A stretch of DNA of 64,000 nucleotides from an uncultured Bacteriovoracaceae bacterium (GCA_950054155.1 CATLOT010000001.1:1-64000), one strand, 5' to 3'; shown: positions 21,097 through 55,674, numbered from the stretch's first letter. The notes: a model not told the origin generated them from the letters alone. Program-made: numbers and translations.

Positions 21097-21172
21097 AGGG
21101 GTGTCGACAAGTGGTTAAGTCAGCAGATTTTGATTCTGCCATTCGCAGGTTCGACTCCTGCCACCCCTGCCA
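21097..21172 (+). tRNA. tRNA-Gln (anticodon TTG)
   Basis: Acceptor stem AGGGGTG/CACCCCT, discriminator G and encoded CCA (21170-21172). D stem GAC/GTC, anticodon stem GCAGA/TCTGC with loop TTTTGAT (anticodon TTG, codon CAA), T stem GCAGG/CCTGC with TTCGACT loop. It lies 34 bases before prs and may be transcribed with it. Confidence 0.95.
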
Positions 21173-21206
21173 CTTTTTTTACTAAATTCAATCAAGGTTC
21201 CCGCCT

Positions 21207-22151
21207 ATGAAAAGAATAGTCCTCGTATCCGGAAACTCTAACAGGAACCTTGCCTCTAAAATTTCAGATTTCTTAGATGTTTCACTCGTTGACCCTCAGT
21301 TGGTTAGGTTTGCGAATGGTGAAATTTTTTGTGAAATGGAAAAAAATGTTAGAGGAGCTGATGTTTTCGTTATCCAGTCAACATGCACACCGGTTAACGA
21401 CAACTTGATGGAATTGCTCATTATGGTGGATGCACTAAAGAGAGCGTCTGCGGCATCAATCACAGCAGTCATTCCCCATTACGGTTATTCAAGACAAGAT
21501 AGAAAAGTAAGTCCAAGAACGCCAATTTCAGCGAAGCTTGTTGCAGACCTTCTCACGACAGCGGGAACGACCAGAGTTATCACAATGGATCTCCATGCTG
21601 GTCAGATTCAGGGCTTCTTTAATATTCCTTTCGACAATATTTACGCGTCACCTGTCATTAGTGACTATATTGAACAATCTCTTATTCAAGAAAATTCAAT
21701 CTTTGTTTCACCAGATGCTGGTGGAGTTGAGAGAGTTCGCCATTACGCTAAAAAACTTAAGCGAGATATTGCGATGATCGATAAGAGGCGAACAGGTAAG
21801 AATGTTGCGAAGGCCATGAATATTGTCGGTGATGTAAAGGGTAAAGAGTGTATTATCATTGATGATATGATTGATACTGCGGGAACACTTGTTGAAGCAT
21901 GTAAGGCCCTTAAGGAAAATGGTGCAACAAAAGTTTATGCCTGTGCCACCCATCCTATTTTCTCAGACCCTGCACTAACCAGAATTCAAGAGTCTGATGA
22001 ACTTGATCGCGTCATTGTAACTGACACAATTCCACTTTCGCCACGTGGTCAGGAAATAGATAAAATTAAAGTTCTCTCTACGGCAGAGCTTCTCTCTAAA
22101 GCAATTCACAGAACATTCAATAATGACTCTGTGAGTTCGCTCTTCGTTTAG
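21207..22151 (+). CDS. prs: Ribose-phosphate pyrophosphokinase
   Basis: Makes PRPP from ribose-5-phosphate and ATP, the entry point for nucleotide, histidine and tryptophan synthesis. 314 residues, standard length, with FANGEIFCEM, the PHYGYSRQDRK flexible loop, VSPDAGGVERVR and the PRPP-binding signature DDMIDTAGT. Followed 8 bases later by pth. Confidence 0.97.
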   Translation: MKRIVLVSGNSNRNLASKISDFLDVSLVDPQLVRFANGEIFCEMEKNVRGADVFVIQSTCTPVNDNLMELLIMVDALKRASAASITAVIPHYGYSRQDRKVSPRTPISAKLVADLLTTAGTTRVITMDLHAGQIQGFFNIPFDNIYASPVISDYIEQSLIQENSIFVSPDAGGVERVRHYAKKLKRDIAMIDKRRTGKNVAKAMNIVGDVKGKECIIIDDMIDTAGTLVEACKALKENGATKVYACATHPIFSDPALTRIQESDELDRVIVTDTIPLSPRGQEIDKIKVLSTAELLSKAIHRTFNNDSVSSLFV

Positions 22152-51586: not shown

Positions 51587-51928
51587 ATGAGCAATTCAAC
51601 AAATTTAGTCAATCTCACTGATAAGGCAATTGATCAGGTTAAGAATATCTTTAGCCAAGAAGATAAGGGTCCAGAGTATGGCCTACGCTTAGGAGTCGTC
51701 GGTGGAGGCTGTTCTGGGTTGAGCTATAAAATTGATTTTGACACGAAAAGAGAGAAAGACAATGTCCTCGATTTTAATGGTGTGAAGGTTTATATAGATT
51801 TGAAATCATCAATTTATTTAAAAGGGGTCACTCTTGATTTTAAAGATGGTCTCAATGGAAAAGGTTTTGTCTTTATAAATCCTAACGCTGCCAATACTTG
51901 TGGTTGTGGCGAATCTTTTTCTGTATAG
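51587..51928 (+). CDS. erpA: A-type iron-sulfur carrier protein (ErpA/IscA)
   Basis: 113 residues with the three conserved cysteines in GGGCSGLSYKIDF and TCGCGESFSV, the HesB signature. Delivers iron-sulfur clusters to target enzymes. ErpA and IscA cannot be separated with certainty by eye; NPNAANTCGCGESF fits ErpA. The next gene encodes YgfZ, a known partner in cluster delivery, 8 bases downstream. Confidence 0.9.
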   Translation: MSNSTNLVNLTDKAIDQVKNIFSQEDKGPEYGLRLGVVGGGCSGLSYKIDFDTKREKDNVLDFNGVKVYIDLKSSIYLKGVTLDFKDGLNGKGFVFINPNAANTCGCGESFSV

Positions 51929-51936
51929 GTCGTTCA

Positions 51937-53478
51937 TTGCGAGAACTACAAAATAAGTATTTTAATCTTGATAGTGAATACGAAGCACTCCTCATTTGTG
52001 GCCCTGATGCTGAAAGGTTTTTACAGGGGCAGCTTACGAATGACATAAGCAAGCTTGAAAATAATAGCTTTCAACTTCAATGCCGCCTCGACCGAGGGGG
52101 AAGAGTCCAGTCCTACTTTTATTTATTAAAAGGCGTTGAGGGATTTATAGCTCTTGTACCACAAGAGCTAAAAGAAGATTTAAAAGCTGACCTTGAAAAG
52201 TACATCATCATGGATGACCTTACTATCGAGGATCATAAAGTAACTCCTATCGTCGTATGGAGCTTTGAAGAATTAAACTCCTCATATTCTGGCATCCTGG
52301 CAAATTTTCCTGCTAAGGTTATTCTCGAGCCATGCAAGGCCCTAGAGGACTTTGAAGAATTAAATAAAGAAACCTATCAAGATCTTCTTGTCCTTGGAGG
52401 TGCACCTGTTCTTGGTAAGAATGTCACCATAGGCACCTTAGTCACTGATACTATTTTAAATTTCAAAGGCGTCTCATTGGATAAAGGCTGTTTTTTAGGC
52501 CAAGAAACAGTTTCAAAAATTGAGACAAGACGTGGGGGAGCTTACTTTCCTGTTGCAATAAAATTAAAGGGAGATCAAGCCCAAAGGGGAAATTCTGGTG
52601 AGAAGTTTTCCGTTGAGGGAAAGGCTGCTGGAAAAATAATTGATTTCATCAATTTCAAGGGACAGGCTTATCTTATTGTGTCGCTTATTCGTAATCATAG
52701 AGTTCAAGGTAAAGAGTTAACCCTAGTATGCACTGAAAGCTCTTTTATGGGTGAGGTTGAGTATATTCCTCTTGGTGGCGAATTCAATCATGAGAGTTTT
52801 GTTCAAGACCTCTATGAAAAAGCCGTAAGTCTTTTTCAGTCTGATAATGAAGAGGAAGCGATTAATCTCCTTAAGGCTGTTGTAAAACTAAGTCCAGATT
52901 ACGAAGATGCCTACGAAGCGATTGGCGTTATTCTAGGAAGGCAGGAGAAGTTTCAGGAGGGAATAGAGTTCATGGATAAAGTTCTAGAAGCCAATCCTGA
53001 CTCTGTAATGGCCCACACAAATAAGAGCCTCTTTTATATGCGTCTTGGAAAAATTGAAGAAGCTGAGGAAGAAAAAGCACAGGCAACAGTAAAGAGTTTT
53101 TCTCAATATGGTAAAGAGGCACAACAAAAAAAGGCGAAAGAAGAGCAGAAGAAAGCAGAAGAGGCTGAGATCGAACGCCGGTTTGATATGTTCAAACAAG
53201 TTCTCGAGATAGATCCTGATGATAATCTCGCGAACTATGGTTTAGCAGATATTTACTTTCAAAGAGGAGAAGCTGAAAAGTCGATACCTCTTTTAGAGAA
53301 AGTGATTAGCATCGATAAAAATTATTCAGTAGCTTATCTTCTCTTAGGAAAGGTCTTTTTGAATACTGAGAATAAAGATAAGGCGAGAGAGGTCTTTAAG
53401 AGGGGCATAGAGATTGCTTCAGCTCAAGGAGACCTAATGCCTGCTAATGAGATGCAGGCTAAGCTAAGCGGGCTTTAG
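51937..53478 (+). CDS. ygfZ: YgfZ folate-binding protein fused to TPR repeats
   Basis: 513 residues from a TTG at 51937 (TAGG upstream); earlier codons overlap erpA in another frame and add no similarity. The N-terminal 280 are a YgfZ/GcvT-like domain with the signature KGCFLGQETVSKIETRRG. YgfZ aids repair or maturation of iron-sulfur enzymes and binds folate. The C-terminal 220 hold TPR repeats interrupted by a highly charged helix (QQKKAKEEQKKAEEAEIERR). Standard YgfZ has no TPRs. Overlaps the HExxH gene tail to tail by 20 bases. Confidence 0.88.
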   Translation: MRELQNKYFNLDSEYEALLICGPDAERFLQGQLTNDISKLENNSFQLQCRLDRGGRVQSYFYLLKGVEGFIALVPQELKEDLKADLEKYIIMDDLTIEDHKVTPIVVWSFEELNSSYSGILANFPAKVILEPCKALEDFEELNKETYQDLLVLGGAPVLGKNVTIGTLVTDTILNFKGVSLDKGCFLGQETVSKIETRRGGAYFPVAIKLKGDQAQRGNSGEKFSVEGKAAGKIIDFINFKGQAYLIVSLIRNHRVQGKELTLVCTESSFMGEVEYIPLGGEFNHESFVQDLYEKAVSLFQSDNEEEAINLLKAVVKLSPDYEDAYEAIGVILGRQEKFQEGIEFMDKVLEANPDSVMAHTNKSLFYMRLGKIEEAEEEKAQATVKSFSQYGKEAQQKKAKEEQKKAEEAEIERRFDMFKQVLEIDPDDNLANYGLADIYFQRGEAEKSIPLLEKVISIDKNYSVAYLLLGKVFLNTENKDKAREVFKRGIEIASAQGDLMPANEMQAKLSGL

Positions 53479-54832
53479 AGACCTCTTGCAGCTGTTCTTT
53501 TAGTTCTGAGCGAGATGCTTCTGAAAGTATAGTCCAGCTTTTCTCTTCAATAGCTTTATCCCTTTCAACTTCGCTTAAAACTTCATCGATAATTTGTTTA
53601 CCAAAGTCAGTGATTTTTTCCATCTGATAGGCCTTTTCAAGATCTTCATGGCATTGGCGGATGAGCTCTGCTTCCTCAAGAAAGCGCATGTGAATTTTCT
53701 GAACTTCATCTTTGGTGAAAAATTGATCAAGATTCTCAGCCAGGGAAAGTTCTTTGAAAAGGCGGTAAGCCCAGTAAAAAGTCACAACAGCATGATAAAG
53801 ACCTCTGATTGGCCTTAAGCTTCTACGCCATGGGGAAAAGAAAATTTTGTCATCATCCTCAAATATGATCTCTTCTTCCCCTTCTAAAAGGGCATTTAAG
53901 AAGTGATGACCATTTTCATGAAGAAGGTCATCTGTCATATCAACAAAATCTCTATTGGCCATATTGATTGACGAATAGCCGGGGAGGGTTGCCATTGAGA
54001 AGCTTACAAGCTCTTCCTCAAAAATCGGGACAATATTCTGAGTATAAGTTTTAAATAAATTCCAAAGTTCAGGCGTTAATTTACTTAAGACTTGGGATGC
54101 TTTTTTGATTTTATCGAGGTGATCAAGGGAAGGCGCCCCATTTTCAGAAAGACCTGCAAGGATATCAATACCATCTGAAGTTTGGTGAAGTGTATCGAAT
54201 CCATGCTCGATAACCTTATCGTCAACAAGGACTTGTATTTTTCCTTGGTCAGGGAAGTACCCAACGATTGGAAAAACGGCTTCTGTAGTTAGCTCACTAA
54301 CATAGCAATGCTTTTTCTGTTGACCGAGAACAAGATGGCCAAAGCCTTCTCCGAGCTCTGTGACGGGACGATAGCTAACGGGTCCCTCTGGCTGCCACTC
54401 TTGCGTATTGATATGAAGATAGTAGAAACTTACGATTTGTAGCTCTTGCATCTCTAAAATTTCTTCAAAGATAGTTTCAATTTCAGCTTTATCTTCTAGC
54501 CTTTCAACAATAAAGCCAAGTAGATCAGATTCAGAGAAAACACCAATGAGATCACTAGGCTCATTGAGCTCTTCTTCGATTAAAGCAAGAGTATCAACGA
54601 GTTTATCAATAAGATTTAGCCAATAGAATTTAAGGGGATGATAAGAATCAAGATCTTTTTGGAAAATGATTTCCCTCAATTCATCTTGAAAGTCGGCACT
54701 AAGATGTTCGCTTTCATGTCCCTCGCCAATATCTTCTCTGACTTCGCTAAGGAATTGAAGATAGCTTTCTTCAACAAAAGTAGAATGACCCTCTAATGCA
54801 TTAGAGTTTGAGATATTTTTTTTTAATTCCAT
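53459..54832 (-). CDS. HExxH protein resembling putative alpha-ketoglutarate peptide beta-hydroxylases
   Basis: 457 residues, no signal peptide. The first 250 are helical and acidic. Then LPGYSSIN (283-290), LLHENGHHFL with H305-E306 and H309, and FSPWRRSLRPIRGLYHAVVTF with W335, R340-P341, G344 and H347. This spacing (PG, HExxH, then WR..RP..G..H) is that of the mod_HExxH family, proposed to be iron/alpha-ketoglutarate enzymes that modify peptides. A zinc peptidase is the alternative. No RiPP precursor or maturase is nearby. It starts 37 bases downstream of tRNA-Asn on the same strand. Confidence 0.6.
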   Translation of the reverse strand: MELKKNISNSNALEGHSTFVEESYLQFLSEVREDIGEGHESEHLSADFQDELREIIFQKDLDSYHPLKFYWLNLIDKLVDTLALIEEELNEPSDLIGVFSESDLLGFIVERLEDKAEIETIFEEILEMQELQIVSFYYLHINTQEWQPEGPVSYRPVTELGEGFGHLVLGQQKKHCYVSELTTEAVFPIVGYFPDQGKIQVLVDDKVIEHGFDTLHQTSDGIDILAGLSENGAPSLDHLDKIKKASQVLSKLTPELWNLFKTYTQNIVPIFEEELVSFSMATLPGYSSINMANRDFVDMTDDLLHENGHHFLNALLEGEEEIIFEDDDKIFFSPWRRSLRPIRGLYHAVVTFYWAYRLFKELSLAENLDQFFTKDEVQKIHMRFLEEAELIRQCHEDLEKAYQMEKITDFGKQIIDEVLSEVERDKAIEEKSWTILSEASRSELKEQLQEVSKARLA

Positions 54833-54869
54833 GGGATTGTCCTAGCGATTTAGGAAAAGGATATGAAAG

Positions 54870-54944
54870 TGGCTGGAGTGGCGGGATTCGAACCCGCGAC
54901 CAACGGATTAACAGTCCGCTGCGCTACCGCTGCGCCACACTCCA
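54870..54944 (-). tRNA. tRNA-Asn (anticodon GTT)
   Basis: On the minus strand the acceptor stem is TGGAGTG/CACTCCA with discriminator G and encoded CCA. D stem GCGC/GCGC, anticodon stem GCGGA/TCCGT with loop CTGTTAA (anticodon GTT), T stem GCGGG/CCCGC with TTCGAAT loop. Confidence 0.95.
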
Positions 54945-54965
54945 ATCCATTTTCATGAGCTTCCT

Positions 54966-54994
54966 TTTATAAAAGACTTCTTTTCTCTTGTCTA
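54966..54994 (-). promoter_or_regulatory. Promoter for tRNA-Asn
   Basis: Minus-strand TAGACA (54989-54994), 17-base spacer, TATAAA (54966-54971), about 22 bases before the mature tRNA 5' end. It may also transcribe the HExxH gene, since no terminator separates them. Confidence 0.6.
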
Positions 54995-55027
54995 CTGTAA
55001 AGTGTGAAAATAACAAATGGGTAAAAA

Positions 55028-55094
55028 CCTAAGTGCCTGAAAACCCGTATTGCTTGACAGGATCGCTCAAGTTAATTGCAGAATAAACCGATAC
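55028..55094 (+). promoter_or_regulatory. Multi-part promoter module, copy 2 (sigma-28-like core)
   Basis: Elements in order: CCTAAGTGCCTGA (55028-55040), TTGCTT (55050-55055), TCAAGTTA (55067-55074) and ACCGATAC (55087-55094). The first box is identical over 13 bases to 15484-15496, and the other elements recur in the same order within two bases of the same spacing. It stands directly upstream of the unknown gene at 55111. Confidence 0.5.
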
Positions 55095-55110
55095 AAGATT
55101 GAGGAATATT

Positions 55111-55674
55111 ATGGAGTTCAAAGGTGAACTGGTAAGGAATCTGCTTAGGATTCTTACTCCAGAGGAAATTGCTGATTTAACGGTCTCTTCTTCAGGTAAG
55201 AAGAAAGTCGACCTCTCTTTACTTGTTGAATCTAGCCTTAGGGGTGAAGATTACAAGTCTATTATCGAAAAAGCTCAAATCGAAGATGAAGAAGAAAGTG
55301 AATTAAATGAAGCAAAAATTCTTCCTTTCGATGAAGGTGAGGTGATCACTGAGCCGCTCACTTTTCAGGCTGGTCAGAGGGTCCATGCCCTTATAGAACA
55401 ATACTCCAAGGTCTTTGCGGAAATGGACAAAAAGGTTCTAGGACCTAAAAGATTTCCCAAGATCAAAGGCTTTTCTTCAAAACAACAAACAAGTACCTTA
55501 ATTCTCGAACAAAAGAAAAAGCTCTTTGCTTCTTATTCAAAAATAAAATCGATGGAAGTTTTATCTCTTTATAAAGATAGTAATGCTGTAGAGTTAAAGC
55601 ACACGAAAGGAAAAGAAGAAGACTTCTCCCTCTCCTCTCGTCAAGGTGTTCTCGTTAATAAGAAGCAAGCCTAA
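55111..55674 (+). CDS. Hypothetical cytoplasmic protein
   Basis: 187 residues from the ATG at 55111 (GAGG 6 bases upstream); a TTG at 55099 is also in frame but lies over the SD. No signal peptide. A helical N terminus with a LTPEEIADL motif, an acidic middle, then a basic C-terminal half. No family recognised. It shares its upstream promoter module with the secreted protein gene at 15593, so the two may be co-regulated. Confidence 0.6.
   Translation: MEFKGELVRNLLRILTPEEIADLTVSSSGKKKVDLSLLVESSLRGEDYKSIIEKAQIEDEEESELNEAKILPFDEGEVITEPLTFQAGQRVHALIEQYSKVFAEMDKKVLGPKRFPKIKGFSSKQQTSTLILEQKKKLFASYSKIKSMEVLSLYKDSNAVELKHTKGKEEDFSLSSRQGVLVNKKQA

Follow-up and report, generated by a model that had tools for sequence, protein, structure and literature searches.

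In a 64,000-nucleotide stretch of DNA from an uncultured Bacteriovoracaceae bacterium (the whole of which is referred to here as the window), the gene that follows tRNA-Asn encodes a member of the aKG-HExxH family and is a vertically inherited housekeeping gene of the Bacteriovoracaceae rather than a RiPP gene. It and the gene for YcfD/RoxA nearly exclude each other, with a complementary distribution among Bacteriovoracaceae genomes. Our working proposal, which we hold tentatively and with somewhat less than even confidence, is that this cytosolic, zincin-fold oxygenase hydroxylates a conserved cellular protein, the translation apparatus being the likeliest source of its target, and that it is expressed by read-through from tRNA-Asn. 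The HExxH enzyme would then stand in, in the Bacteriovoracaceae, for RoxA/YcfD, the JmjC enzyme that beta-hydroxylates uL16.

The HExxH protein and its predicted chemistry

The nearest named relatives are MAGs of the Bacteriovoracaceae/Bacteriovoracales. The features of the locus, in window coordinates, are as follows.

51587..51928 (+): A-type Fe-S carrier (ErpA/IscA-like), conserved neighbour
51898..53478 (+): convergent ygfZ-like/TPR gene, conserved neighbour (TPR from Pfam; ygfZ-like from a reading of the N-terminal half)
53459..54832 (-): HExxH gene, 457 aa, ATG start; predicted cytosolic Fe(II)/alpha-ketoglutarate protein hydroxylase
53462..54115 (-): catalytic domain, residues 240-457, matching TIGR04267 and ChlH
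53792..53836 (-): SPWRRSLRPIRGLYH, residues 333-347, including the third conserved histidine, H347 (37/37); aligns with SPWREDLRPPSGLLH of ChlH
53903..53920 (-): HENGHH, H305-H310, metal-binding motif, conserved 37/37
54116..54832 (-): N-terminal region, residues 1-239, mostly helical, weakly conserved, without a Pfam match
54833..54869 (-): 37-nt gap from the tRNA-Asn CCA end to the HExxH ATG, with a pyrimidine-rich start
54840..54843 (-): AGGA, likely Shine-Dalgarno of the HExxH gene, read from the sequence
54870..54944 (-): tRNA-Asn(gtt), CCA encoded
54966..54994 (-): sigma70-like promoter TAGACA-17-TATAAA 5' of tRNA-Asn, kept across the family

The first-pass annotation had assigned the product to the mod_HExxH (aKG-HExxH) family, and an HMM search confirms this: TIGR04267 (aKG-HExxH peptide beta-hydroxylase) scores 46.7 bits against a curated cut-off of 40 (E 3.5e-12) and matches all 17 aligned orthologues. 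By phmmer the protein matches ChlH, the HExxH domain of ChlB (PDB 8s5f) and an aKG-HExxH peptide beta-hydroxylase to which the catalytic domain is homologous, with E 6e-10. A search of the PDB with a 17-sequence profile returned ChlH (8s5f, E 4e-13) and a radical-SAM protein (22nu, E 4e-5), with no matches beyond these two. The motifs run in protein order from PGYSSIN..., through H305-E-N-G-H309-H310, to S333-PWRRSLRPIRGLY-H347. The set is conserved in 37 orthologues with identity down to about 30%; HENGHH, SPWR..RP.RG and the third histidine are each present in 36-37 of the 37, with their spacing kept and in alignment with 8s5f, and the second conserved histidine, whose loss had been named as a possible point of failure for the assignment, is kept in every one. 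Invariant residues comprise V276, S277, S279, P284, S287, N290, R294, D295, D301, D302, HENGHH 305-310, N313, E325, SPWR 333-336, R340, R343, G344, H347, T351, F352, R383, E386, E387 and G411. Given a TIGR04267 score above cut-off, the phmmer match to ChlH and motifs kept across 37 orthologues, the HExxH match is not a matter of chance. The N-terminal 240 residues are far less conserved than the catalytic part, and no Pfam model matches this region.

Structure prediction, which had been suggested as a check, gave ChlH as the best fold match and no zinc peptidase. The 8s5f chains were the sole confident Foldseek matches (probability 1.00, with low TM-scores) of AlphaFold models of both the full-length protein (pLDDT 66) and the catalytic domain (pLDDT 73). 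These models were built from 4 sequences, their overall confidence is only moderate and confidence at the active site is low, so we claim the fold family but not the metal geometry. HExxH plus a third histidine is a zincin signature. The fold of the aKG-HExxH family itself resembles that of zincins, and PflC without its leader peptide shows some hydrolysis (PMC12636437), all of which could be read in favour of a zinc metallopeptidase; the best peptidase match to the predicted fold, however, was IRAP (E 0.84, probability 0.14), and the SPWR..LRP..G.xH block is common with ChlH. With its best fold and sequence matches lying outside the peptidases, we rejected this reading and consider it very improbable.

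The protein very probably has the chemistry of an Fe(II)/alpha-ketoglutarate oxygenase, as judged from these sequence relationships. Motif conservation suggests that Fe(II) would be bound by H305, H309 and probably H347. In the proposed mechanism, alpha-ketoglutarate and O2 would generate a ferryl species, which would hydroxylate some conserved protein of the cytosol on a side chain. ChlH and the protein described here share HExxH and SPWR..LRP..G.xHA, but ChlH forms part of a fusion with a radical SAM enzyme within a RiPP cluster, whereas the present protein stands alone, with an N-terminal region of its own, in a housekeeping slot. PflC/PosC, PesO and BipH/BpmH belong to the same family by annotation and carry out Fe/aKG peptide hydroxylation or backbone cleavage; all lie in RiPP clusters beside precursors, and none is described as core or tRNA-linked.

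One genus departs from this picture of a conserved catalyst. In g24 (L051, L175, L174) a homologue occupies the same slot with a QSNALH-type sequence in place of HExxH and with SPWR and the third histidine lost, while its N-terminal region is kept. The two full copies share 62% identity, and their pN of 0.22 and pS of 0.75 are comparable to those of pairs of active proteins; in the third species (L174) the homologue is split over two frames. Since the dead copy is under purifying selection, a non-catalytic role has probably been selected in g24. Extending this to the whole clade, such that the protein would be mainly a binding or scaffold protein with catalysis secondary, strikes us as extremely improbable, given that outside g24 the catalytic residues are the most conserved part of the protein.

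A housekeeping slot behind tRNA-Asn

A full-length, catalytically intact HExxH gene is present in 73 of 115 Bacteriovoracaceae genomes. The full-length clade is confined to this family, and elsewhere in the phylum we saw only short, distant paralogues. The order tRNA-Asn / HExxH / ygfZ-erpA is fixed; of the 37 loci inspected, 34 have tRNA-Asn preceding the HExxH gene on its own strand. AstA/AstD flank the slot on one side and ygfZ-erpA-FHA-cobalamin adenosyltransferase-mutase on the other, and most genomes that lack the HExxH gene still have these neighbours around tRNA-Asn. Neighbouring genes are of Ast, Fe-S, cobalamin, Bam and TPR types; AstD/AstA form a unit separate from the HExxH gene, and the 3' ends of the latter and of the convergent ygfZ-like/TPR gene overlap by 20 nt. 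A conserved 191-aa ORF of unknown family (window 55099-55674) is divergent from tRNA-Asn in most genomes of the family.

We found no precursor peptide gene near the HExxH locus, and no space for one. No MNIO was found in the genome, whose sole YcaO belongs to the OsmC/YcaO type known from E. coli. With neither an adjacent precursor nor other RiPP enzymes at the locus, membership of a RiPP cluster was rejected. The characterised members of the family described in PMC12636437, PMC13060819 and PMC12707348 all act in RiPP clusters and unlinked precursors are possible, so that the enzyme could conceivably tailor a distant, unrecognised precursor; against this stand a housekeeping slot fixed across the family, the lack of MNIO and of any YcaO other than the E. 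coli type, and more than 30 invariant residues, and we regard it as improbable. The first-pass annotation had argued from the absence of a precursor that the target may be a cellular protein. Family-wide housekeeping synteny, the absence of MNIO and the RoxA exclusion pattern described below strengthen that suggestion, and the substrate is probably cellular and unrelated to RiPPs.

The ATG lies exactly 37 nt past tRNA-Asn, as had been noted, and scans likewise bore out the absence of a terminator or separate promoter from the gap: no terminator-like site was found in 53300-55300 and no sigma70-like match within the 37 nt themselves (CTTTCATATCCTTTTCCTAAATCGCTAGGACAATCCC, which includes the likely Shine-Dalgarno AGGA). 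The promoter scanner missed TAGACA-17-TATAAA because its rule demands T at position 6 of the -10 element; the end coordinate given earlier for the gene region, 54994, is the first base of the -35-like hexamer TAGACA. Co-transcription with tRNA-Asn, proposed in the first-pass annotation, gains comparative support from promoter, gap and terminator distribution, and read-through from the tRNA-Asn promoter most likely accounts for transcription of the HExxH gene. T(A/G)GACA-17-TATAA(A/C) is kept 5' of tRNA-Asn in most genomes, with the HExxH gene present or absent. The gap from tRNA to ATG is at most 120 nt in 30 intact loci and often 5-40 nt; in about a dozen it is 5-14 nt, so short that a Shine-Dalgarno outside the tRNA would hardly fit, if at all. 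A terminator was found in 2 of 31 adjacent loci (the pseudoenzyme locus L051 included) versus 7 of 14 in which the gene is missing or no longer adjacent (Fisher 0.002, with phylogeny not corrected for and with adjacent gaps being shorter). A terminator is detectable for only 6 of the 22 tRNAs of this genome that do not precede another tRNA; its absence is therefore weak evidence by itself, and it is the comparison among genomes that carries the argument. Since four orthologues are found 0.6-1.5 kb away from tRNA-Asn and two show a terminator in the gap, the link cannot be obligatory. Read-through would make the level of the HExxH protein follow translation capacity. The same layout is found in the window at 21097-22151, where a prs-like gene (314 aa, a name given from sequence only) follows tRNA-Gln on the same strand after 34 nt with no terminator, so tRNA-mRNA units are not unique to this locus.

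Complementary distribution with RoxA

YcfD/RoxA was chosen for comparison because it is a known bacterial protein hydroxylase of the kind proposed here (PMC4295552); the test is accordingly post hoc, with a single named candidate. RoxA-type JmjC proteins are present in 20 of the 115 genomes, their best PDB matches being to YcfD (1e-38 for the E. coli enzyme). A local RoxA profile gives them at least 322 bits (at least 209 in the case of a split copy in G012) versus 67 or less for other JmjC proteins, the call in G134 being made by Pfam scoring only. The winged-helix model PF20514 was dropped as a marker, as it finds only 2 RoxA proteins. Three genomes carry both genes, 70 the HExxH gene only, 17 RoxA only and 25 neither (Fisher 1.4e-6), such that 25 of the 42 genomes without the HExxH gene are also without RoxA.

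The association was examined on a tree of YgfZ, a single gene, with 89 rows drawn from MAGs, over which a minimum of 8 changes is required for the HExxH gene and of 10 for RoxA. Pagel's test favoured correlated evolution over independence (2dLL 28.4, p 1e-5, with 0 of 60 simulated nulls reaching this value), and the result persists when the rows are limited to genomes of 90% completeness or more (p 4e-4), when long branches are removed and when genus g52 is left out. AstD, used as a control trait at the locus, was not significant (p 0.18); on the same rows the HExxH gene gave p 0.014. Pagel's test can over-react to few events, and well-supported branches provide only 4 independent contrasts (typically 2 opposite and 0 same), too few for significance.

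RoxA, an Fe/2OG protein hydroxylase, is thus a possible functional analogue of the HExxH protein, which is likewise acidic, is predicted to be a hydroxylase of this type and has a near-complementary distribution in the family. Its JmjC/cupin fold and sequence are unrelated, and Pfam gave no JmjC match in the HExxH protein, so the likeness is one of analogy only. Whereas uL16-Arg81 is the established substrate of RoxA, for the HExxH protein it is only hypothesised.

The substrate and its alternatives

With a pI of 4.54 the HExxH protein falls in the lowest 6% of ORFs in the window, and the median for its orthologues is 4.70; the corresponding values are 4.76 for RoxA and 6.5 (median) for the short HExxH paralogues. 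Acidity has been described as characteristic of the YcaO enzymes that modify uL16, and the YcaO of E. coli, a RiPP-class enzyme, thioamidates uL16-Met82, beside the Arg81 modified by RoxA (PMC13063428). E. coli-type YcaO therefore offers a parallel, in that it is an acidic member of a RiPP enzyme class acting on a ribosomal protein, with a copy in this genome; its ATP-dependent thioamidation and its fold are unrelated to those of the HExxH protein. That copy, an OsmC/YcaO protein of 731 aa and pI 4.68 (L176; G000:C37:21798-22793), is a candidate for the thioamidation of uL16, and the genome that encodes it has no RoxA. A further hint comes from genus g52 (L168-L171), in which the HExxH gene has moved directly 5' of a YbiT-like ABC-F gene in all 4 species (the ABC-F frame of L169 runs off the contig and was recognised by similarity). 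This genus sits within a part of the tree that mainly has RoxA and lacks the HExxH gene, and gave no RoxA hit. The genes inserted beside it vary from genus to genus (a cyclase in g6, a thioesterase in G006, ABC-F in g52), and for this reason only ABC-F is kept as a clue to the substrate, and as a weak one. 

A substrate in the translation apparatus, the best-supported target class, is a possibility we take seriously while leaning slightly against it, and uL16 itself is unlikely. The hydroxylation targets reported for aKG-HExxH enzymes are His, Asp, Phe, Gln and Pro, with Arg not among them (PMC13060819); hydroxylation of Arg81 would thus be a novelty among these enzymes, and a different ribosomal residue is an equally likely target. 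The fullest version of the proposal, in which a RiPP-derived aKG-HExxH enzyme made from a tRNA-mRNA transcript replaces RoxA, possibly on uL16, as a second and structurally unrelated class of bacterial ribosomal oxygenase, seems to us rather unlikely.

It is also quite conceivable, though we doubt it, that the enzyme hydroxylates a cellular protein or metabolite outside translation, with the RoxA pattern reflecting lineage sorting and the tRNA serving as a cheap promoter. Family and synteny evidence bear equally on this explanation and on a role in translation, genomes lacking both enzymes are common, and the phylogenetic contrasts are few. Moreover, the protein is basic in five orthologues, from genera g5, g25 and g66 (pI 8.2-9.7), and g25 accounts for two of the three genomes with both HExxH and RoxA; from this combination the clade may not share one substrate, and the lineage with basic orthologues may have changed its own. 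On the other hand, correlated evolution is still supported after incomplete genomes, long branches or the relocated genus have been taken out, AstD as a control gave no significant result, and the acidity of the protein matches that of uL16-modifying enzymes.

Whichever protein is modified, a core, vertically inherited member of this family points to protein hydroxylation in the ordinary physiology of a predator lineage, in contrast to the characterised aKG-HExxH enzymes described in PMC12636437, PMC13060819 and PMC12707348, which all act in RiPP biosynthesis. If the exchange with RoxA is real, ribosomal hydroxylation would have arisen anew from a class of enzymes that tailor peptides, much as with E. 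coli YcaO on uL16, and the question of what orphan RiPP-class enzymes modify would become a single one for mass spectrometry.

Finally, short HExxH paralogues of the Bdellovibrionota (260-300 aa; L145, L146, L148, L149, L150, L152 and L153) lie in apparent signalling operons. Profile scans of the L146 operon identified a sigma54 response regulator, a small secreted ORF, an SBP_bac_5 binding protein and a HATPase kinase, and an SBP_bac_5 protein is also encoded at L145; a peptide-modifying sensor system is possible. At L151 (G001:C64:20000-29049), a 356-aa HExxH paralogue stands beside a 135-aa secreted ORF and a 310-aa protein that is SET-like by eye with no Pfam match, which is possibly a RiPP-like cluster.
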